Shown here in pieces: positions 2 to 38,326 of a stretch of 48,631 nt of DNA (position 1 is the first letter of the stretch; every line of letters starts with the position of its first letter). The stretch is from a virus. The position numbers and the translations under genes were made by a program. Below the pieces are notes generated by a model. It saw nothing but the letters and a program-made list of their open reading frames with translations, had not been told where the DNA came from and ran no database searches. The stretch lies in IMG/VR virus record IMGVR_UViG_3300032116_000324, positions 1-48,631 of that record. One strand, written 5' to 3'.

Positions 2-571
2 CCAACTGTAACTTCAACTCCGATTTGTGATCAATTATTAACGAATGAAAATGATGACAATATACTATATGAAAATGGTGATTTCTTATCATTAGAACAG
101 GACTTCTGCCCGAGTCAAACCCCTACTAATACACCAACAAACACACCAACTCCAACTAATACCCCTACTGAAACAGAAACAAGCACACCTACACCTACTG
201 AAACAGAAACAAGCACACCTACACCTACTGAAACAGAAACAAGCACACCTACACCTACTGAAACACCAACTCAAACTCCAAGTGAAACACCTACCGAAAC
301 TCCAACCCCAACTAACACAGAGACACCAACTGAAACTCCGACCCCAACTAACACAGAGACACCAACTGAAACTCCAACTAACACTCCAACTCCAACCCAA
401 ACAGAATCTAATTTACCATTAGAGACACCAACACCAACCGCAACAAGTTCTGAAACACCTACTGAAACACCAACACCAACTCCAACTCCAACTGACGCGA
501 ATGAAAATATGACAGCCGAAAATGGAGATACAATAACCGCTCAAAATGACGATCCAATTATTTTTGATTAA
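2..571 (+). CDS. Pro-Thr-rich tail fibre/adhesin protein, 3' part
   Basis: The frame is open from base 2 to TAA at 569-571, so the start lies left of the window. What is visible is a short acidic segment with two Cys (PICDQLL and QDFCPSQ), then about 125 residues of [11 protein letters not shown] low complexity, then an acidic tail ending DDPIIFD. The Thr-Pro part looks like an extended, mucin-like stalk. The tail has the same pattern (ENGD, then [11 protein letters not shown]) as the ends of the other Pro-Thr proteins here, a short beta-strand repeat. No enzymatic motif is seen. It is probably a virion surface fibre, judged by composition and by neighbouring fibre genes. Low complexity prevents a finer call. 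Confidence 0.7.
181..270 (+). repeat. 30-bp tandem repeat in Pro-Thr coding DNA
   Basis: Three consecutive 30-base units begin at 181, 211 and 241. The first two are identical and the third diverges in its last bases. Each unit encodes ten residues of the type [10 protein letters not shown], so copy-number change keeps the frame. Confidence 0.9.
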
Positions 572-595
572 ATGTAAAAAATCATAAACTCAATA

Positions 596-602
596 TATTT
601 AT
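596..602 (+). promoter_or_regulatory. TATTTAT box, candidate late promoter
   Basis: TATTTAT followed by AAAATAA lies 14 bases before the ATG at 617. The same box precedes most first genes of virion transcription units in this window. The promoter role is inferred. Confidence 0.45.
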
Positions 603-616
603 AAAATAAAAAAACT

Positions 617-1243
617 ATGGCAAACGTAAAAATATCTCAACTACCTACTTACACAGGTAATACACAAAACACTTGGATGGTAATAAACGATTCAGGTGAA
701 ACCACGAGTTATAAAGTTCAAAAACAATATTTCTTTGCGGCCGCAGGATTTTCTTGGGTAGACACCGGATCGGGAAGTAACTACCCTGCGAGTGATAGAT
801 ATGGTAATCTAACAAACGCTTCAGATAACTATATGCCTTTTAATACGACAATTTTTAACAATAATACAGATGTATTTGAATTAGTTAATTCAGGATCTGT
901 ATCTGGAACTTTAGGTGATACGGGAGCTAGGGTTTATATTAAAGTTCCTGGAATATATCAAATATCTTGTCAAGTGCATTTGTTTGACCTTTTCGGTAAT
1001 ATTGATGTTTTAGTCAAATTATCATCATCATCAACCTCGGCAGGAACAATGTCTTTGGTTACTTTACTTCACGATTATAAGTCAGTTGAAACATCTGCAG
1101 ATCAATTAATGAATGGAACACTTTTGATAAATGTAACCGATCCTACTTATTATGGACTTGCGGTAACTCCAAGTGCAAATACTCCATTCCCTTCGGCAAC
1201 CAATTCAACCCCAACAAGGTGGTTCTTCCAAAAAATATCTTAA
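617..1243 (+). CDS. Tail fibre protein with C1q/TNF-like C-terminal domain
   Basis: A 208-residue protein. The N-terminus (VKISQLP, then a stretch with VINDSGETTSYKV) is the same docking-type module as at the start of the 1104-residue fibre protein at 3694. It is presumably the part that joins the virion. From about residue 85 the pattern resembles the C1q/TNF jelly-roll: a strand with NSGSVSG, then YIKVPGIYQISCQVHLF, a typical 'vPGiY.i...v' strand, ending in RWFFQKIS. Such domains form trimeric heads on phage fibres. An intrinsic terminator follows directly, so it is probably a one-gene unit. The fold assignment is by pattern only. Confidence 0.6.
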   Translation: MANVKISQLPTYTGNTQNTWMVINDSGETTSYKVQKQYFFAAAGFSWVDTGSGSNYPASDRYGNLTNASDNYMPFNTTIFNNNTDVFELVNSGSVSGTLGDTGARVYIKVPGIYQISCQVHLFDLFGNIDVLVKLSSSSTSAGTMSLVTLLHDYKSVETSADQLMNGTLLINVTDPTYYGLAVTPSANTPFPSATNSTPTRWFFQKIS

Positions 1244-1248
1244 TAAAG

Positions 1249-1280
1249 AAACCCTCGAATAAATCGGGGGTTTATGTTTT
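1249..1280 (+). terminator. Intrinsic terminator
   Basis: AAACCCTCG (1249-1257) pairs with CGGGGGTTT (1265-1273), nine pairs including one G-U, with a 7-base loop. An interrupted T-rich run follows. It lies 6 bases after the stop of the 208-residue fibre gene. Confidence 0.8.
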
Positions 1281-1313
1281 TAATTAATCACTTGAATTTA
1301 ATTCTATTACAAC

Positions 1314-1324
1314 TATTTATTTAT
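1314..1324 (+). promoter_or_regulatory. Double TATTTAT box, candidate late promoter
   Basis: Two overlapping TATTTAT copies (1314-1320 and 1318-1324) are followed by AAAAATAAG. They sit between the terminator at 1249-1280 and the open frame of the long Pro-Thr protein. Confidence 0.45.
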
Positions 1325-1332
1325 AAAAATAA

Positions 1333-3669
1333 GTTATCTCCGCCTTTTTACAAATATCAAGCATAGTTGGAACCCCCCCATTTCAGGTTTACGTTTGTGA
1401 TGTCACTGGTTCATATTGTGAATTAGTTGATACAATTACGGGGTCCGTTCCTCCATCGGTTTTGATTCAATTACCGAGCTTCTTTGACCTTGCTCCCGCA
1501 GTATTGGTAAAAATAGTCGATGCAAATAACTGTGAAAATTATGAGATAAGACCTTGTCAAACAACTCAAACCCCAACTCCCACCCCTACGGTTACACCAA
1601 CTAACACTCAAACACCGACAAAAACTCCTACTCAAACACCAACAGTTACGCCAACAAACACTCAAACTCAAACGCCAACTAACACTGAAACCTCAACTAA
1701 CACACCAACACAAACAAATACTTCCACCCAAACACCTACAAGTACTGAAACACCTACTAATACACCAACACAAACAAATACTTCCACCGAAACACCTACA
1801 AGTACTGAAACACCTACTAACACACCAACTAGCACTACAACTCCAACAAGTACGGAAACACCAACACCAACTAATACTGAAACTTCAACTGAAACACCTA
1901 CCGAAACTCCAACCCCAACTAACACAGAGACACCTACACCTACAAACACGGAAACAACAACACCAACGAATACGGAGACACCTTCAAACACCCCAACTCA
2001 AACACCAACCTCAACACCTCCTCCGGCAATATGCTTTACAATATCTGATGAGTTCTCAAGTTGGTCTTGCACAATTTCACCATCCGGATATCATAATACA
2101 AAAGTTTACTACGCGGTATATGGATCTGATTGCACAACTGTCATAGGTTATGTCTATTGGTCTATAACTAACGATAGATGGGAAACTTCTAATGTCTTGG
2201 ATGGAACGGTATATGGATACTTGGATAATGCGGGTGATGATTATCCAATTAATGGTCAATTCTTCTTCTGGGTTCCTGTGAGTGGTGATTATGAAATAAA
2301 TGCATCTATTGAAGGAATTTGTCCTACACAAACTCCAACACCAACAAATACGACAACTAATACTTCAACACCAACAAATACGGCAACTAACACTCCAAGT
2401 AGTGTAACTCCAACACCGACACCTACAAATACTCAAACACCAACTGAAACTCCAACTCTAAATACCTGTCTGATCCAATCATGTTGTGAACCAACAGACC
2501 TCAGAACGGCATATGTTAGTATCCCTGACGCAATTGTTGGTAGAACCGGTCTATTGGGCGGATTCTGTTTCCAAATCCTTCAAGTTGGTATTTCAGGAAC
2601 TCCGAGCAATATTATGACACAATTCTATGATAATTGTTTAGATTGTGAAACCGTTAATCCTTGCCCAACTCCAACACCAACAAGAACTCCGACTAGAACA
2701 CCAAGTCAGACACCAACTCAAGCAACACCAACTCCAACATCAAGTAATACTCCAACTTTAGCGACACCTACACCAACACCTTCACATACTCCAACAAATC
2801 AAACACCAACCGTCACACCAACAAATAGTCCATCCTATTTGAATTGCGTTGCCGAATATTGTTGTGATGTTACAGATCAGGAAATCTTGAAGGTAAGAAG
2901 TGATCTTGCAATTATTGGAAATACAGTTGTATTCAATAACAAATGTTATAGAATTATTCAAAACAATCTTGTTATTGCGTTTGATATTATAAATTCCGCT
3001 TATAGTAGTTGCGCAACATGTTTAGTTGATTACGGATGTCCTACTTCAACTCCAACTCCAACTAACACAAGAACACCATCAAATACTCCTTCCAATACAC
3101 CAAGTGGTGTGACTCCGACTCCAACTCCAACTAACACACCAAGTAGTGTAACACCAACTCCAACACCAACAAACACCGCAAGTAATACACAAACACCATC
3201 CAATACCGCAACGAACACACAAACTCCATCAAATACTCCGACAAATACTCAAACACCAACTAACACAAGAACAAATACCCCAACACCTTCCAATACTCCA
3301 TCTAATACTGCAACTCCGACAGAGACACCAACTAATACTCCAACCAACACACAAACACCAACTAATACTCCAACCAACACACAAACACCATCTAACACTC
3401 CTACTAATACCCAAACCTCAAGCGAAACTCCAACAAATACACCAACTAATACTGAAACTCCAACCAATACTCCTACTAACACAACCACATCTACCGAAAC
3501 TCCGACTTCTACTCAAACTCCAACAGAAACACCAACTAACACTCCAACCAACACAGAAACTCCGACTCAAACTCCAACACCTACACCAACAACATTAGAG
3601 GAAGGTTTTTTACAACAGGAAAATCTATTCTATATCCTCCAAGAGGACCAGAATAATATCATAATATAA
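1333..3669 (+). CDS. Long Pro-Thr mucin-like fibre protein with Cys-rich domains
   Basis: The frame is open from 1333 (after TAA at 1330-1332) to TAA at 3667-3669, but no ATG, GTG or TTG occurs before TTG 1462. Residues encoded at about 1363-1550 ([19 protein letters not shown] and on) look like an intact Ig-like domain that TTG 1462 would cut in half, so the true start is probably upstream and non-canonical or damaged. After this come four globular parts and Thr-Pro linkers: linker (about 1560-2015), a domain (2025-2325), linker, a Cys-rich domain (2455-2665), linker, a second related Cys-rich domain (2830-3040), and a long linker to 3595. The C-terminal tail is hydrophobic and acidic ([16 protein letters not shown]). 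It is probably a surface adhesin or fibre, and the Thr-rich linkers are candidate glycosylation substrates. Confidence 0.65.
1681..1830 (+). repeat. 60-bp imperfect tandem repeat
   Basis: Units begin at 1681 and 1741, with a partial third unit at 1801. The run of about 40 bases around ACACAAACAAATACTTCC is shared by the first two. Each unit encodes 20 Thr-Pro-rich residues, in frame. Confidence 0.85.
3331..3390 (+). repeat. Perfect 30-bp direct repeat
   Basis: The 30 bases at 3331-3360 recur exactly at 3361-3390 and encode [10 protein letters not shown] twice. This points to recent slippage or duplication in the Pro-Thr stalk, or to a region prone to assembly collapse. Confidence 0.9.
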
Positions 3670-3693: not shown

Positions 3694-6600
3694 ATGATGC
3701 CAAATTTACCAATATCACAGCTACCCTCAGTGGGTAATACGGGTTATACTGAATCTGATATACTTGTTTTTGTTAATTATCAAATTGAAACTGGAACAAC
3801 ATCTAACACACCCTTATCACAAGTTAAGGAATGGGTTTTATCCGGATTAAGCGAAAACTACCTTCCTTTAAGTGGAGGGACCGTAAGTGGTGACACCATA
3901 TTTCAGAGTGGATTAACCGCTAATACAATATCGGCCACAACATATTTGAATTTACCTGATGTTGAACCGAGTAAAAAAATTGTTCTGAAAAAACTATATC
4001 TAGGTAATAGAAATGTTAATAACAGTACGAACCCTTTTGTTAGCTCAATATTAAATCAATCGTTAAACAATCAAACAAAACGTATTTTTACATCACCAAA
4101 TCAATATACCGGAAGTTTTCTTGATTATTATTTTACCGTGAATGATGGTGTTGAGAGAAAAAAGATTTTGTTTTCTAGGGGTATTGCACCTAATATCATT
4201 ACAGGAACTACGATTGATGACATGGTTGATTATATTGTTGACACATATGTTGATGTTAATGTAAACTTTTACTGTGAATTATGGGTTTTTTTGGATAAAA
4301 ATTTTAACGAAATTAAACAACTTAAATTAGTAAATCCTCTTTTTAATTCTTTACATCCGAGGAAATTAAATTCAACCAGATCCTATCTCGGTGTAACTGA
4401 ATTTGTTAGGAAAACAGAATACCCTGACTTTTCTTGGTTAGACGATAATACAATTACAAGTAATTTTAACGCTCCTTCTGACATTTGGTATGATCCTCTA
4501 ACTTCAGAGGATATACCTAAGAAGATTCATGATATTGTTAACACATCCGGTTTTTACGGAACATTGTCAGGTTTTGCTCAAACAGTAATAAATGTGGGTT
4601 CTTGGGATACCGATGTGAGAAATGTTGTTAATAATTCAGTATATGTAGAAACCTTACAAAATTTTTATACCAAATTCATAGTTCCAACTAATAGATATAA
4701 TTTTACAAACGTAAATTTACAAAAGTTGAATAACTTTTATGGTGATATTTTTTATGACAACGTAAGTGGATCTCCTTTGGTGTTTTCGGCCAACTCAAAT
4801 ACAGATGTTTATCCATCACCTTATTTTCTACAATTGATAGACACATACAAAATATATCCGTCGGGTCAATTTGGTTATATTTTTTATTCTTCGTCTGCTG
4901 AAGCAGATACACAACTCAACGACCTTAATTATAGTGTTGGTCATGACAATGAATTAAAATACATAAATAGAAACACAAGAGAATTCGGAAGTTATATCCA
5001 AGTTATACCAGGAATTAATGAAAACTATTCTCTCAACGTTAAAATTTCAGGTGATCCGGATCAAAATTTATGTAATTCTTTCATAGATGATCTATTTGAT
5101 AACAGATTGGTTCTTAATAACCCAAATGTCAAGTTGAACAGTTCTGCATGGCAAAATATAAAAAATTTTAACAAATCTGAATTTTATAATTCTGTGTTGA
5201 CCGGTCAAACCGAGTTTAATTTCCTTCTTCAGTCCACAGATGTGAAAATGGAGCAATTGTCTGAAAATTATCAATTTACCGGAAGTTCTTTTGTTAGAAA
5301 AATTTACAACTCCGGAGAATTCTCATACTATGGAGATAGTAGTGGGACGTATCTCCAATTTGGAGTAAATTCACTTTCCGGAGAAGGATTATTTGACCAA
5401 AATTTCAATAGTGGCGGTTTCGGGAGTGACAATTTAGGTCAATGTATTGACAAACAAAGTAATGGGAAAATAATTGTTGGTGGGGCTTTCTCCGAATATG
5501 ATGAAAGTACCTCAACATATTATATGAATAATATCATGAGATTGAATACTGATGGAACTTACGATACATCGTTCGTTAATGGAATTGGATATGGGTTTAA
5601 TAATCCAGTATATGCGGTTGCTGTTCAATCAGACGATAAGATAATCGTTGGTGGTGTGTTTAGTACATATACTGATAATACAGGATCTTATTCCTGCAAT
5701 AACATTGCAAGATTAAACTCTGACGGAACTTTTGATACAACATTTAATAGTGGTGGTAATGATTTTGATGACTATGTCAATACAATAGCAATTCAATCGG
5801 ATGGTAAAATAATATGTGGTGGCGCATTTAATATATACAACGATATTAATGGAAATTGGAACACAACATATTTGATAAGGTTAAATACAGATGGGACTGC
5901 GGATTTGAGTTTTGTTGGAGATAACTATGGATTTAATAATATTGTTCGTGTGGTATCTATACAAAGTAATGGTAAAGTATTAGTTGGTGGTGATTTCTCA
6001 CAGTATTCCAATAGTGCCGCAACAAACAACATGTCCCACATATGTAGATTAAATACTAACGGAGATTTTGACACATCTTTCGGAACAATTGGTTTTGGAT
6101 TTGATGATTCTGTTGACGCATTTGCGATTCAATCTGATGGAAAAATATTAGTCGGAGGAGTTTTCAATTTATACACTTCGGGCCCTTATGAATGTGCAAA
6201 GATTGCAAGATTAAATTCAGATGGTAGTTTTGATACTTCATTTTTAGACGGAATCGGAGTATATGGTTTTGCCGGTGGTTGGGTTAGAGATATAAAAATA
6301 CAAAATGATGGAAAAATTTTGGTTGTTGGTGGTTTTTATTCTTATGATGATGAAACCGGATCTTATTTTCCCAATAGAATCGCTAGGTTAAATAGCGATG
6401 GAACTTATGACACAACATTCAACCAAGGGGGGACAGGATTCACCGGTTGGGATGTTTATCAAATGTTATTGACAGAAGAAACAGTTATTGATAAAATCTC
6501 TGTTGATGCGATTTATAAGGGACATTCTTTTAGACCATTCATATATCCACTAAATCTAACACAAATATTTTTTGATGTTCCATCGTCTTATTTATATGAC

Positions 6601-7008
6601 GGAACAAATTTGATTCCTTCAGATAATTCTTCAAATAATATTTTTGAGTTTGTAGGATCAACCATTACAAATAAAAAACTTTGTTTGATTGTATATTACA
6701 AAAAACTTGATTCTTATGATTTATTTGTTGAGGATATTGTTTTGGCAGAACCTCGCGGTGGTTTCGGTTATGTTGAAACCAATGTTATAACTTTGATGAT
6801 AAATAACTTAGAAAAAATATTCACAACTAATTTAGGTAATAACGTCAAGTCAAGACAAATCAAACCAAATAATTTAGAGGTTTACCTTGGAATACTTGAT
6901 GTAGATACAAACAAAGTTAATACGATACCAAACTATAAAATTGTAGTAGACAATTATGGTGGTAACCTGATATTTAGATTAGTAAAGGGTGGTCTTAATA
7001 TGAATTGA
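3694..7008 (+). CDS. Large tail fibre with six delta-60 (beta-propeller) repeats
   Basis: 1104 residues. The N-terminus (LPISQLPSVGNTGY) is the docking module shared with the protein at 617. Residues 57-88 hold the fibre motif YLPLSGGTVSG and then ISATTYLNLP, a ten-residue string repeated in the protein at 9909. A long unassigned region follows. Residues about 565-925 contain six repeats of the form 'AiQSdGKIivGG.Fs ... iaRLNsDGt.DtsF', the delta-60/DUF5122 repeat that builds a beta-propeller. This is a likely receptor- or glycan-binding head. The C-terminal 180 residues are unassigned. Start ATG 3694 is immediately followed by ATG 3697, and either fits. Tandem hairpins follow the stop. Confidence 0.75.
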   Translation: MMPNLPISQLPSVGNTGYTESDILVFVNYQIETGTTSNTPLSQVKEWVLSGLSENYLPLSGGTVSGDTIFQSGLTANTISATTYLNLPDVEPSKKIVLKKLYLGNRNVNNSTNPFVSSILNQSLNNQTKRIFTSPNQYTGSFLDYYFTVNDGVERKKILFSRGIAPNIITGTTIDDMVDYIVDTYVDVNVNFYCELWVFLDKNFNEIKQLKLVNPLFNSLHPRKLNSTRSYLGVTEFVRKTEYPDFSWLDDNTITSNFNAPSDIWYDPLTSEDIPKKIHDIVNTSGFYGTLSGFAQTVINVGSWDTDVRNVVNNSVYVETLQNFYTKFIVPTNRYNFTNVNLQKLNNFYGDIFYDNVSGSPLVFSANSNTDVYPSPYFLQLIDTYKIYPSGQFGYIFYSSSAEADTQLNDLNYSVGHDNELKYINRNTREFGSYIQVIPGINENYSLNVKISGDPDQNLCNSFIDDLFDNRLVLNNPNVKLNSSAWQNIKNFNKSEFYNSVLTGQTEFNFLLQSTDVKMEQLSENYQFTGSSFVRKIYNSGEFSYYGDSSGTYLQFGVNSLSGEGLFDQNFNSGGFGSDNLGQCIDKQSNGKIIVGGAFSEYDESTSTYYMNNIMRLNTDGTYDTSFVNGIGYGFNNPVYAVAVQSDDKIIVGGVFSTYTDNTGSYSCNNIARLNSDGTFDTTFNSGGNDFDDYVNTIAIQSDGKIICGGAFNIYNDINGNWNTTYLIRLNTDGTADLSFVGDNYGFNNIVRVVSIQSNGKVLVGGDFSQYSNSAATNNMSHICRLNTNGDFDTSFGTIGFGFDDSVDAFAIQSDGKILVGGVFNLYTSGPYECAKIARLNSDGSFDTSFLDGIGVYGFAGGWVRDIKIQNDGKILVVGGFYSYDDETGSYFPNRIARLNSDGTYDTTFNQGGTGFTGWDVYQMLLTEETVIDKISVDAIYKGHSFRPFIYPLNLTQIFFDVPSSYLYDGTNLIPSDNSSNNIFEFVGSTITNKKLCLIVYYKKLDSYDLFVEDIVLAEPRGGFGYVETNVITLMINNLEKIFTTNLGNNVKSRQIKPNNLEVYLGILDVDTNKVNTIPNYKIVVDNYGGNLIFRLVKGGLNMN

Positions 7009-7021
7009 CCGCCTCATAAGA

Positions 7022-7050
7022 GAAGATCGTTAATATAAATTCGGTCTTTC
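7022..7050 (+). terminator. Hairpin 1 of a tandem pair (weak terminator)
   Basis: AAGATCG (7023-7029) pairs with CGGTCTT (7042-7048), with one G-U, around a 12-base loop TTAATATAAATT. Only a short T run follows. Confidence 0.5.
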
Positions 7051-7058
7051 ATAATTAG

Positions 7059-7095
7059 GGCGGCGTTAATAAAAATTCGCCGCCTCATTTTTTTT
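7059..7095 (+). terminator. Intrinsic terminator, hairpin 2 of the pair
   Basis: GGCGGCG (7059-7065) pairs perfectly with CGCCGCC (7078-7084). The 12-base loop TTAATAAAAATT nearly equals the loop of the preceding hairpin. TCA and eight T residues follow. It ends the 1104-residue fibre transcript. Confidence 0.8.
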
Positions 7096-7104
7096 ATAAC
7101 GAAC

Positions 7105-7111
7105 TATTTAT
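7105..7111 (+). promoter_or_regulatory. TATTTAT box, candidate late promoter
   Basis: TATTTAT then ATATAAATAAA lies 27 bases before the ATG at 7139 and just after a terminator. Confidence 0.45.
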
Positions 7112-7138
7112 ATATAAATAAAAATTAAAATATAGATT

Positions 7139-7459
7139 ATGAACACTTATACAATGGAAATTAAAGACATGATTGTGATCTCAGAAATCAGCGGATACAC
7201 AAATTTTGTGACTAGAATATCGTGGAATTACAAAGGTGTCAATGAAATTGGGGTTGAAAGTGAATTCAACGCTGTTACCAAGTATACCCAAGTTGATGAA
7301 GAAAATTTCATTGAATATTCCGCTCTTACAGAATCAAACGTAATATCGTGGATTGAATCTCATCCTGATTTATTAAGAGTTAAATCATATGTTGACAACT
7401 CAATTGCAAATAAAATGAGTAAATCAAAAAAAAGATTACCATTCCCTTGGTTAACATAA
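7139..7459 (+). CDS. Small virion-associated protein (DUF7936-like, tentative)
   Basis: 106 residues. An N-terminal strand-rich half (MEIKDMIVISEISGYTNFV, then TRISWNYKG) is followed by an acidic segment with YSALTESNVISWIES and a basic C-terminus (KMSKSKKRLPFPWLT). The layout recalls small conserved proteins found near fibre and baseplate genes of T4-like cyanophages (the DUF7936 type), with a beta domain followed by 'l.e..v..W'. There are no catalytic residues and no signal peptide. It is the first gene after a terminator and TATTTAT box, with the next gene 4 bases on, so it probably heads a fibre-gene operon. Function unknown. Confidence 0.5.
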   Translation: MNTYTMEIKDMIVISEISGYTNFVTRISWNYKGVNEIGVESEFNAVTKYTQVDEENFIEYSALTESNVISWIESHPDLLRVKSYVDNSIANKMSKSKKRLPFPWLT

Positions 7460-7463
7460 TCAT

Positions 7464-7853
7464 ATGATTAGATATAATACTAAAAGATATTGGGGTTATT
7501 CAACTGACACAAAACCAGCCGGTGCTCAATTTGGTGATAGGTTTTTGGAGATGGATACTAAAAACGAATATGTGTTTAGTAGTTATAATGAGTGGAAAAT
7601 AATTAATCAACCGTTTCTGAGAAATAGAACAAATTCAAGTTCTACAGATATAATAAAACAATACGAATCAATCTTTAATCCTTGTGATTTGGAAATACTT
7701 AGCACAAGTGTATTTATAGTTGATGACTTTGCCTGTTATTACGTTTTGGGTGATTTAATAAACAATGGATCCCTTGTTGTAGATGGAGAATGTAAGATTG
7801 GTGGTACATTATCAGGTAGTGGACCAATAACAGGGTCAGGAATAATAACTTAA
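7464..7853 (+). CDS. Hypothetical fibre-region protein
   Basis: 129 residues with no family I recognise. The N-terminal half is polar and aromatic (YWGYSTDTKPAGAQFGDRF). The C-terminal quarter is a run of short turns (LINNGSLVVDGECKIGG, then SGSGPITGSGIIT), as in beta-helix ends or trimer tips of phage fibres. It starts 4 bases after the previous stop and is followed 11 bases later by the first adhesin paralogue, so it is probably co-transcribed. A virion part is likely from context only. Confidence 0.5.
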   Translation: MIRYNTKRYWGYSTDTKPAGAQFGDRFLEMDTKNEYVFSSYNEWKIINQPFLRNRTNSSSTDIIKQYESIFNPCDLEILSTSVFIVDDFACYYVLGDLINNGSLVVDGECKIGGTLSGSGPITGSGIIT

Positions 7854-8720: not shown

Positions 8721-8874
8721 ATCAATTATGGGATAATGATGTTATTTTTTTCGTCCCCCCTACCAAGGGTAGGGATGAACGAGCTAGTGTCTTATCCCTT
8801 CGGGCCGAAAGGCCTCTGGCGCCTATAAAGCGCCAGAGGGAATTGGATCGTATTGTTGTTGTCCCATAATTGAT
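8721..8874 (+). ncRNA. Large structured RNA-like element between adhesin paralogues
   Basis: 8721-8733 pairs perfectly with 8862-8874 (13 bp), and pairing can continue with G-U pairs to 8741/8854. Inside are CCCTACC/GGTAGGG (8758-8764/8068-type partner at 8768-8774), a GGCC-GAAA-GGCC tetraloop hairpin (8803-8814), and a perfect 10-bp hairpin CCTCTGGCGC/GCGCCAGAGG (8813-8822/8830-8839). The last two share bases 8813-8814, so they would compete there. GGGATAA (8730-8736) can instead pair with TTATCCC (8792-8798), giving an alternative fold. The element is far more GC-rich than its surroundings and has no trailing T run, so it is not a simple terminator. Whether it acts as RNA is inferred. Confidence 0.55.
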
Positions 8875-8887
8875 AAAAAACAAATTT

Positions 8888-9769
8888 ATGCCCAGTTATA
8901 TTGAATTAGACAAACAATCGAGTTTTCCACCATCATCAAATGTTGGAAAAATGATATTTGGTATTAAGACCAATGAGAAAGCAGCTTTGACTAACCACTT
9001 GGGTCAAACAATAGAAATTGGTGGTGGAGGTGGTGGTGGAACAGGAGTTGTAATACCACAACCAATTGTTTTATTTACAGGCAACACTGGACAGTATATC
9101 AGAAATGGATTGGCAATACAATTTTCTGATACTCAGTTTATTTCCGCATCAAACAATCCGGAACTTTTTTTATTTAGATGGAAAAAAGGTAGGTATAGTT
9201 ATAGGGAGAATATCTCTGACCCCAGAGGTAAAAGAAAAAAGAACCCCAAATGGGTCCATCCAACAACGCAAGGCTCAGAAACAAAATGGGCGGGATGGAA
9301 GTTTTTTAACGGAAAACAATGGCATTATCCAAATGGTATTGAATTAACAGGTAGAACAACAGAGTGGGCTATACCTCAAACAATAATTCCATATGAAATA
9401 TTTGGAATTGATTTTAACAAGTATATGTTTTGGAATTACAGAACAAGTGGTGTTCTTCAGTCTTGGGACGAAAACGTTTTTCCATCGGGGAGCTTTTCGC
9501 CAACAATTCACCAAGTATCATCCGATAACATAAGAATTGGTATGCAAAAACCTCAATCAAACATAATAAAGTATAGTTTGGCTGTTGCCATAGATAATCC
9601 TGACGCAACTCAATCAAACGGGTTGTGTCCGAAAATATTTGGTCCATTATCTGAACCCTTTTACACTGTTGTTTTCAAGGATATTAATGCTGGTGGTTTC
9701 GTTGATATAAATTTGGTTAGAGACAATCATATGAATCATAAACACGTATATAAAAATGCGATTAATTAA
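8888..9769 (+). CDS. Adhesin-like fibre protein, paralogue 2
   Basis: 293 residues from ATG 8888. A TTG in the same frame at 8870 lies inside the closing stem of the upstream element, and ATG 8888 gives MPSYIEL exactly as in paralogue 1, so 8888 is chosen. It matches paralogue 1 along the whole length, with a longer Gly hinge (GGGGGGG at about residue 47), a different basic loop (RGKRKKNPKW) and a variable stretch around residues 185-215. The conserved C-terminus is NGLCPKIFGPLSEP followed by NHMNHKHV. It is probably a second receptor-binding variant carried by the same phage. Three 32-base tandem repeats follow its stop codon. Confidence 0.6.
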   Translation: MPSYIELDKQSSFPPSSNVGKMIFGIKTNEKAALTNHLGQTIEIGGGGGGGTGVVIPQPIVLFTGNTGQYIRNGLAIQFSDTQFISASNNPELFLFRWKKGRYSYRENISDPRGKRKKNPKWVHPTTQGSETKWAGWKFFNGKQWHYPNGIELTGRTTEWAIPQTIIPYEIFGIDFNKYMFWNYRTSGVLQSWDENVFPSGSFSPTIHQVSSDNIRIGMQKPQSNIIKYSLAVAIDNPDATQSNGLCPKIFGPLSEPFYTVVFKDINAGGFVDINLVRDNHMNHKHVYKNAIN

Positions 9770-9778
9770 AAAAATTAA

Positions 9779-9890
9779 GATGATTTATGGGGGCGCTTTG
9801 TTAATCTGATGATCCCTTATGGGGTTAATTGATTAGTTTGTCCATCCCTTATGGGGGGAACTTGTTAGTTTAGCACTCCCTTAAATCATC
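9779..9890 (+). repeat. Three 32-bp degenerate tandem repeats in a closing stem
   Basis: Units at 9785-9816, 9817-9848 and 9849-9880 each begin TTATGGGG and end TCCC, with TTAG/TTAA-like centres. Unit junctions form CCC-TTAT-GGG hairpins. GATGATTTA (9779-9787) pairs with TAAATCATC (9882-9890) and closes the array, with further broken pairing inward. There is no T run after it and no ORF. The function is unknown, and the architecture echoes the element at 8721-8874. Confidence 0.65.
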
Positions 9891-9908
9891 AAAAAAATTA
9901 AATAAGAA

Positions 9909-10334
9909 ATGAAAACAATTTTAACATTAGATAAAGCAAATCAACCATTCGGTTTTCCTCAACTTAATAGCGGAGGAACTTTTGATAATGTTATTGCAAC
10001 AAATATAACCGGAACAACGATATCCGCAACAACTTATCTTAATTTACCTGAATATACAACCACAGGTTTGACGGGTTCATCACAAACTCTCACCACATCA
10101 TTTAATTATTACGGAATTAGTTTCAGTGGAAATGTTGATTTAATACTTCCCACACCTATTGGATATGAAGGAAAGACAATAACAATCAAAGATGAAAGTG
10201 GTTTATCAAGTAGTTATAGAATAAGATTATCGGGATCAACAGGGCTTATTGACAATAACTCTTATGTTGATATGAATACAAATTACATGTCATTAACGCT
10301 TTTATCTAGAAATAATAATTGGTGGATAATCTAA
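9909..10334 (+). CDS. Small tail fibre protein
   Basis: 141 residues. An N-terminal part (TLDKANQPFGFPQLNSGG) is followed by ISATTYLNLP at residues 38-47, identical to residues 79-88 of the 1104-residue fibre at 3694. The C-terminal half has a common fibre-tip pattern: VDLILPTPIGYEGKTITIKD, then GLIDNNSYVDM, then NYMSLTLLSRNNNWWII at the end. This is a beta-rich head ending in the 'NWWII' type terminus seen in many phage fibres. It lies 15 bases before the next structural gene. A virion part with a likely trimeric head; the specific receptor is unknown. Confidence 0.65.
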   Translation: MKTILTLDKANQPFGFPQLNSGGTFDNVIATNITGTTISATTYLNLPEYTTTGLTGSSQTLTTSFNYYGISFSGNVDLILPTPIGYEGKTITIKDESGLSSSYRIRLSGSTGLIDNNSYVDMNTNYMSLTLLSRNNNWWII

Positions 10335-19089: not shown

Positions 19090-20154
19090 ATGGAGTTTTT
19101 TATTAATAAAAATGCCACACTCCCTTTGCTGAAAATGCAAATAGTGAAGGATGGGAGAAGTGACTACAATGAATTTATGAGTTTGATTGAAAAGGCATCC
19201 ATTTCCTTTTCAATGATTGATGTAGAAACAGGATTACCAAGAATAACTTCTAAAACAGGAGGATTTGTTTCCAAAACTTTTATTGATCCCGACACTCCAC
19301 CTGAATATTACATATTTTATAAATTTACTAAAAGAGATACATCTAAAGTTGGTAGATATGAAGGTCAGTTCATGTTAAAAACTGATCAAGGAACTTTAAT
19401 TGTTCCGATAAGAGAAAAACTTTACATAAATGTAACGGATAGTTTTATTTCTGACGAGATTTGTTGTGACGATCAAAGTTATCTTCAACCTTGTCCCCCA
19501 TCTACACCATGCCCCGTGTGTCCAAGTCAAACACCAATACCTTCACCATCTGTTACACCAACACTAACAACAACTTCAACACCAACTCCTTCTGTAACTC
19601 CGGGAGATCTAAATGTTAATTTGATTGTTGAGGTAATGTCAGGATCTGTCATTTGTAACTACAAATTGATATTGAGTAGACCTTTAGACCAAACGGTTAG
19701 TTTGGGAACAATAGTTCAATTAGGATTATTATCGGGGGGAACCTATGATACTCCCGGAATAACTATTTTCGTTCCGGCTGGAAGTTTATCAGGTGAAACT
19801 ACTCTATTCTTGAATGATTTGGAATATGGTGATCTATCTGCAGAGTCAACTTTAATCGTAACTCAACTATCCCCATCAGGTTATTCTTATGAAGTGTTTG
19901 GACAGGTTATATTTCAGTTTCCTCTTCCAACTCCAACACCAACAAATACTTCAACACCTACCCCGACTTTAACTTCTTCTGAAACTCCTACAACAACAAA
20001 TACTTCAACACCTACCCCGACTTTAACTTCTTCTGAAACTCCTACACCGACTCCTACACCGACCCCTGAGGATAATCCGATAGATCCAATAATAACCGAC
20101 ACAGATGAATATATTTCAGTAGGTGATGGGTTTTATTTAAGATACATTGAATAA
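19090..20154 (+). CDS. Fibre protein: baseplate-anchor domain plus Pro-Thr linkers
   Basis: 354 residues. Residues 1-120 (NATLPLLKMQIVKDGRSDYN, FSMIDVETG, YIFYKFTKRDTSKVGRYEG, LIVPIREKLYINV) form a conserved phage domain resembling upper-baseplate (BppU-type) anchors. A Cys-rich hinge (EICCDD, PCPPSTPCPVCPS) and a Thr-Pro linker follow. Then comes a beta domain (about 170-275), a second Thr-Pro linker with an 18-residue tandem duplication, and an acidic tail (DEYISVGDGFYLRYIE). It probably attaches a mucin-like stalk to the baseplate. It directly follows the glycan operon. Confidence 0.6.
   Translation: MEFFINKNATLPLLKMQIVKDGRSDYNEFMSLIEKASISFSMIDVETGLPRITSKTGGFVSKTFIDPDTPPEYYIFYKFTKRDTSKVGRYEGQFMLKTDQGTLIVPIREKLYINVTDSFISDEICCDDQSYLQPCPPSTPCPVCPSQTPIPSPSVTPTLTTTSTPTPSVTPGDLNVNLIVEVMSGSVICNYKLILSRPLDQTVSLGTIVQLGLLSGGTYDTPGITIFVPAGSLSGETTLFLNDLEYGDLSAESTLIVTQLSPSGYSYEVFGQVIFQFPLPTPTPTNTSTPTPTLTSSETPTTTNTSTPTPTLTSSETPTPTPTPTPEDNPIDPIITDTDEYISVGDGFYLRYIE
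19942..20049 (+). repeat. 54-bp tandem duplication
   Basis: Two copies (19942-19995 and 19996-20049) are identical for about the first 50 bases and encode 18 residues each of Thr-Ser-Pro linker. The near-identity indicates a recent in-frame duplication. Confidence 0.9.
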
Positions 20155-36823: not shown

Positions 36824-36886
36824 GTGGGGTTAGATTTATCACAGAAAAGTTATAAATTTGTGGTAATTTATAACCCCACTTTTTTT
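36824..36886 (+). terminator. Strong nested intrinsic terminator after sheath
   Basis: An outer stem GTGGGGTTA (36824-36832) / TAACCCCAC (36871-36879) overlaps an inner perfect 10-bp hairpin GTTATAAATT (36849-36858) / AATTTATAAC (36865-36874). Seven T residues follow at 36880-36886. The next start codon is 8 bases on. Confidence 0.9.
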
Positions 36887-38296: not shown

Positions 38297-38326
38297 AACG
38301 TAGGGACAAAACCCTACGTTTTTTTT
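38297..38326 (+). terminator. Perfect intrinsic terminator abutting a start codon
   Basis: AACGTAGGG (38297-38305) pairs with CCCTACGTT (38312-38320), nine pairs and a 6-base loop, followed by T residues to 38326. The ATG of the chaperone gene begins at 38327, with no base between. Confidence 0.95.

Follow-up and report, generated by a model that had tools for sequence, protein, structure and literature searches.

A predicted three-way junction of repeated units accompanies a putative tail-adhesin gene in dissimilar phages

Why are two paralogous tail genes of one phage each followed by a short, strongly foldable intergenic element, and what might such an element do? The window analysed here is the whole 48,631-nt stretch, a 48.6-kb virus record with T4-like features that include a tail sheath and a DNA polymerase. 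P0001 and P0002, the two paralogues, belong to a family that we call adhesins, a label guessed from the gene context and from N-termini that are exchangeable. Element E1 lies behind the first and E2 behind the second (Table 1). We propose that E1 and E2 are most likely intergenic structured elements that act as RNA in a polycistronic tail-gene transcript. Elsewhere in the window, predicted virion genes contain long threonine/proline-type codon repeat arrays (ACACCAACT..., 160-3600 and 19929-20067).

E2 is built on an exact repeat. Copies of TTATGGGG start at 9785, 9817 and 9849, a spacing of exactly 32, with no others on either strand of the window, and TRF places a tandem array of period 32 (score 86) at 9812-9883. 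A perfect 9-bp closing stem joins the outer arms, GATGATTTA (9779-9787) and TAAATCATC (9882-9890), which are part of a 19-nt inverted repeat, 84% complementary, that caps the array. These results bear out an initial annotation that described three 32-nt units inside an outer stem. Its picture of conserved ends and variable centres holds for the ends but not fully for the centres, since TTA occupies unit positions 13-15 in all three units. The units are best read as 28-mers of the form GGG-N10-TA-N10-CCC, separated by 4-nt TTAT spacers that bring the period to 32. The 11-bp AAAAAAATTAA is found on both sides of E2 (window 9768-9778 and 9891-9901); it could be a target-site duplication, though it is of low complexity.

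The plus strand of E2 has a minimum free energy of -44.6 kcal/mol. Dinucleotide-shuffled controls average -27.9 +/- 3.5, and none of the 200 is as stable (z -4.7). In the predicted ensemble, the GGG/CCC clamps form 4.6 and 3.4 of 5 possible pairs across the two borders between neighbouring units and 5.0 in the closing stem, whereas pairing within units is 0.00, 0.16 and 0.00. Forcing in-unit hairpins raises the energy from -43.1 to -24.2 kcal/mol, a cost of about 19 kcal/mol, which speaks against the earlier proposal that the array switches between in-unit and junction hairpins. The prediction that E2 is a three-way junction built by the pairing of neighbouring units is therefore well supported by modelling. 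In such a junction, the 5' half of unit 1 and the 3' half of unit 3 would form the closing stem P1, lengthened by the AT-rich arms, while the borders between units 1 and 2 and between units 2 and 3 would form hairpins P2 and P3, with a TA step at the branch point.

Table 1. Positions of the two elements, their parts and the neighbouring genes in the window. R1 is a covariance model trained on E1-E3.
Feature	Position	Strand	Basis
P0005, upstream gene	7464..7853	+	homologue precedes adhesin in 310-kb phage, 54% identity over 79 residues
P0001, putative tail adhesin paralogue 1, 281 aa	7865..8710	+	60% identical to P0002; homologues in L003, L021, L022
Element E1, predicted E2-type three-way junction; extra hairpins enlarge loops 1 and 2	8721..8874	+	z -7.8; 78 bits with R1 (E1 in training set)
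E1 unit 1, 28 nt	8730..8757	+	unit reading
E1 loop 1, 14 nt, extended hairpin	8758..8771	+	fold, unit reading
E1 unit 2, 27 nt	8772..8798	+	unit reading
E1 loop 2, 39-nt insert, two GC-rich hairpins	8799..8837	+	fold, unit reading
E1 unit 3, 28 nt	8838..8865	+	unit reading
P0002, putative tail adhesin paralogue 2, 293 aa	8888..9769	+	60% identical to P0001
Element E2, predicted three-way junction	9779..9890	+	z -4.7; junction pairing; 107 bits with R1 (E2 in training set)
E2 5' arm of closing stem P1, 9 pairs and unpaired T	9779..9788	+	inverted repeat, fold
E2 unit 1, 28 nt; 5' half in P1, 3' half in P2	9789..9816	+	pairing, unit tests
E2 loop of P2, TTAT	9817..9820	+	fold
E2 unit 2, 28 nt; 5' half in P2, 3' half in P3	9821..9848	+	pairing, unit tests
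E2 loop of P3, TTAT	9849..9852	+	fold
E2 unit 3, 28 nt; 5' half in P3, 3' half in P1	9853..9880	+	pairing, unit tests
E2 3' arm of closing stem P1	9881..9890	+	inverted repeat, fold
P0003, downstream tail-fibre-like gene; start 18 nt past E2	9909..10334	+	weak phrog_972 tail fibre match, E 0.003

Is this arrangement peculiar to one phage? The sole close IMG/VR relative, contig 3300032093_000021, is also the only other match to the exact repeat pattern across IMG/VR. It is identical to the window from about 7.4 kb on, with E1 and E2 unchanged, and so tells us nothing about variation. All 204 mismatches between the two fall before about 7.4 kb (6041-7300 region), a pattern suggestive of recent recombination with its boundary near the DUF5122 gene. 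More distant homologues were informative. A protein search found an adhesin homologue with 39% identity in locus L003, where the next gene has a crAssvirus muzzle domain, and a degenerate nucleotide pattern encoding the conserved peptide G-x-C-P-K-x-F-G-P led to homologues in L021, downstream of what we take from its translation to be a terminase large subunit gene, and in L022, part of a 310-kb contig. A second pattern, KWxGW[KR]F[FY], gave only chance matches outside the known loci, and tblastn of the adhesins against phages and plasmids returned nothing except one chance match (E 7).

An element follows every adhesin-family gene that we found (5 of 5): two in the window and one each in the crAss-like (E3), terminase-bearing (E4) and 310-kb (E5) records. 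Relatives lacking a repeat structure at the corresponding position had been named as the observation that would count against the array; instead, counterparts stand behind all three further homologues. Each element starts within about 20 nt of the adhesin stop codon and ends 10-18 nt short of the next start. The 310-kb contig also holds a cluster of 29 tRNA genes (L077, 2885-13321) and two long inverted-repeat elements outside this family (L070, 14882-15073; L071, 7679-7834), whose ends are GTTAGCC/GGCTAAC-like or ACATAAC/GTTATGT.

The structural evidence thus comes from five distinct elements in four lineages. Each can be read as three GGG-(about 22 nt)-CCC units with loops between them, with unit lengths of 28/27/28 in E1, 28/28/28 in E2 and E3, 26/25/26 in E4 and a less regular 28/33/23 in E5, and each folds more stably than its shuffles (z -7.8 for E1, -7.6 for E3, -8.4 for E4 and -4.4 for E5, which is weak in P2). 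E1 therefore shares the architecture of E2, as the earlier reading of the two adhesin paralogues had supposed, and E4 has two evident direct repeats of 32 nt plus a partial third. TA occupies positions 14-15, the exact middle of the unit, in 8 of the 9 units of E1-E3, a result equalled by none of the shuffles or rotations (5000 of each). Outside the clamps, neighbouring units pair at 67 of 99 positions, a count that none of 5000 shuffles reached (46 +/- 4.8); unit borders were picked by eye, so both tests are somewhat generous. If each position i in a unit has position 29-i of the preceding unit as its partner, TA falls at the branch point of a three-way junction. Self-pairing of units reaches 53 of 99 positions, about 1.5 standard deviations over a shuffled mean (46 +/- 4.8) that was computed for neighbour pairing. 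The suggested array of binding sites, taken as independent dyads, fits these numbers poorly, although some protein could still bind E2. Local alignment of E1-E5 detected no sequence similarity between elements; it is therefore the fold, not the sequence, that persists.

Covariation points the same way. In an alignment of E2, E3 and E1 with its loops trimmed, 73.7% of cells are paired, compared with 42-52% after shifting the partners by 1-3 columns, and 11 pairs are altered on both sides; the covariation score was reached by 6 of 500 shuffles, with the reservation that trimming the E1 loops and reading the structure partly off E2 tilt this result toward the model. RNAalifold on a plain MAFFT alignment gave a different and poorly supported fold. 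The covariance model of the junction, R1, was trained on E1-E3 and leaves E4 and E5 as held-out cases. It finds E4 at full length (35.3 bits, E 8e-7), and no other new match scores below E 1 across the 51 loci, 810 kb in all, so that the covariance analysis called for in the initial annotation yields both compensatory changes in the arms and recognition of an unseen member. E5 is the top match within its own 5 kb, a weak one (17.8 bits, E 0.0013) that the filtered 810-kb search missed. R1 had no match in 24 additional phage records that lack the adhesin. An independent scan of 593 kb for long-stemmed three-way junctions returned a handful of others, one of them in a tRNA cluster and none with GGG/CCC units. 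Rfam 15 contained no family matching E1-E5 at gathering or permissive thresholds; MIR946 at E4 was a chance match (23.2 bits against a cut-off of 190). A perfect 19-bp inverted repeat in L036 (13622-13730; AGAAAGTTACAAAGTAACA, copies 71 nt apart, more GTTAC/GTAAC copies nearby) was set aside as a family member because it is AT-rich and has no units; it is possibly an operator or origin.

What does the element belong to, the gene or the site? The gene on its 3' side varies (adhesin 2, P0003, the crAss muzzle gene and another), and in an adhesin-free crAss-like phage of Flavobacterium, elemoE, a structural gene overlaps the muzzle-like gene downstream and leaves no room for an element. Together, these observations tie the element to the adhesin rather than to the site. 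The 310-kb phage has the order P0005-like gene, adhesin, E5, P0003-like gene, with the gene after E5 matching the P0003 N-terminus. This is the window order, to which the window adds a second adhesin-element pair. The simplest reading of these gene orders is that a gene-plus-element cassette was transferred and, in the window, duplicated; adhesin gene and element would move as one.

Such a cassette could mean that the element is itself a mobile DNA site, foldable as a single strand like integron attC, that mobilises or duplicates gene and site together. We consider this improbable. The layout of one gene followed by a foldable 3' site is attC-like, as are the retention of structure over sequence, the occurrence in unlike phages and the tandem [adhesin-E1][adhesin-E2] arrangement compared with a single copy between homologous neighbours in the 310-kb phage. 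However, R boxes and a linked integron integrase are missing, and attC is a single hairpin rather than a three-unit junction, whose three equal units are not obviously needed by an excision site. The RYYYAAC box is absent within 30 nt of all five elements, and GTTRRRY occurs by chance at two. An integrase (PF00589) is present in one of the five records, about 64 kb from the element, while Y1 transposase (PF01797) and reverse transcriptase (PF00078) were found in none of these records, which may be fragments. We therefore rejected an attC site proper, for want of boxes and a linked IntI-type recombinase, as well as REP/RAYT (no PF01797) and a DGR or retron (no PF00078, with the same proviso about fragments), and the earlier idea of a repeat-based recombination site finds no counterpart among these known kinds. 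T4-type phages reportedly carry PeSL cassettes, described by Arbiol and colleagues in 2010 as an early promoter plus a simple stem-loop. PeSLs resemble our case as stem-loop cassettes between genes that are linked to the exchange of modules in T4-like phages, but their promoter and simple stem-loop layout is not seen here.

The element may act as RNA or as folded DNA, and strand comparisons lean toward RNA. The plus strand is more stable than the minus strand in all five elements, a difference that is mostly base composition (combined z about -2), and R1 scores the held-out E4 and E5 higher on the plus strand. An excess of G-U pairs in the arms, considered as proof of RNA, was not significant (599 of 4000 shuffles). 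A strong stem between genes could also be an ordinary factor-independent terminator, possibly elaborated, and E4 and E5 each have five T in the following ten bases. We regard this as distinctly improbable, since E1, E2 and E3 have 0, 2 and 3 T there and lack a U-tract, the closing stem extends over about 70-105 nt, and canonical U-tract terminators occur elsewhere in the window (36828-36880 and about 38297-38320). The position between stop and start, the co-directional genes and the missing U-tract at E1-E3 argue for a non-terminating cis element. Our preferred reading, to which we give slightly less than even confidence, is a cis-acting structured RNA that travels with the adhesin gene and would act on the adhesin message, probably as a barrier on the mRNA or as an element in its processing. 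By forming a stable 3' structure that does not terminate transcription, the element would shield the adhesin mRNA or separate it from the downstream cistron, and so set the adhesin dose, possibly with the help of a protein that reads the junction.

Protein binding might be more than assistance. The next best reading, though in our view an unlikely one, is that a specific protein binds the junction, as an autoregulatory operator or as an assembly scaffold for a presumably trimeric fibre protein or other oligomer, by reading three near-equivalent strands and the branch-point TA. The pseudo-threefold symmetry, the TA conserved at the branch in each unit and the tight link to one protein family are consistent with this, as is the greater resemblance of units within than between elements (mean z 1.22 vs -0.06). 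Moreover, every adhesin homologue has a lysine/arginine-rich stretch before a conserved W/Y/F-V-H-P motif, although a basic stretch by itself is weak evidence. Tail fibres trimerise, but a trimeric adhesin is an assumption, and no RNA-binding domain is recognised in the protein. P0001 and P0002 have no PHROGs match, P0002 has no Pfam match and P0001 only a sub-threshold one to DUF3443; comparison of the adhesin with the PDB was uninformative. The AlphaFold model reaches pLDDT 41 at full length and 60 for the core, and this low-confidence core found no fold match. Going further, one could imagine a new phage RNA class, in which a pseudo-threefold three-way junction of three 28-nt units is specific to one tail-adhesin family and co-inherited with it across unrelated phages, a trimeric protein (perhaps the fibre) binds the junction and couples expression or assembly, and triplication of a unit renews the element, so that structure stays while sequence turns over. 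This fuller picture is speculative, and we think it doubtful.

Like REP/BIME-type structures, the element is a stable non-terminator structure between cistrons of one transcript, but it belongs to no repeated genomic sequence family, occurs once per adhesin gene and consists of 28-nt units in a three-way junction. In type III toxin-antitoxin systems (ToxI/CptI), too, tandem RNA units of about 32-36 nt stand beside one protein gene; here, however, the units lie downstream rather than upstream and pair mutually instead of forming separate pseudoknots, and Pfam and PHROGs showed no toxin family homology in P0001 or P0002. A decoy or mimic RNA directed against host defence, akin to pseudo-antitoxin repeats or CRISPR-repeat mimics, would account for three tandem RNA-like repeats in a phage, and the account of phage PhiTE in PMC3475682 describes phage-borne repeat RNAs that mimic type III antitoxins. 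This possibility is very remote, since the element is consistently tied to a structural-type gene across four phage records and its family shows neither sequence conservation nor an Rfam match. Finally, the AbiF-associated ncRNA RCd22 (PMC12373285) and TnpB-linked reRNAs (PMC11061315) likewise pair a structured RNA with one protein family, but the adhesins have no AbiF or TnpB homology and look virion-structural, and their elements have no Rfam match.

Why should a tail gene carry its own structured element? Phage host-range genes are traded between lineages, and how working regulation comes along with them is poorly understood. The adhesin family is rare, and the near-threefold symmetry of the junction is unusual. 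The element recurs in T4-like, crAss-like, terminase-bearing (sipho-like) and 310-kb phages. If borne out, an element conserved in fold but not in sequence and confined to the place behind one adhesin family in each genome searched would offer a testable case of such co-inheritance.
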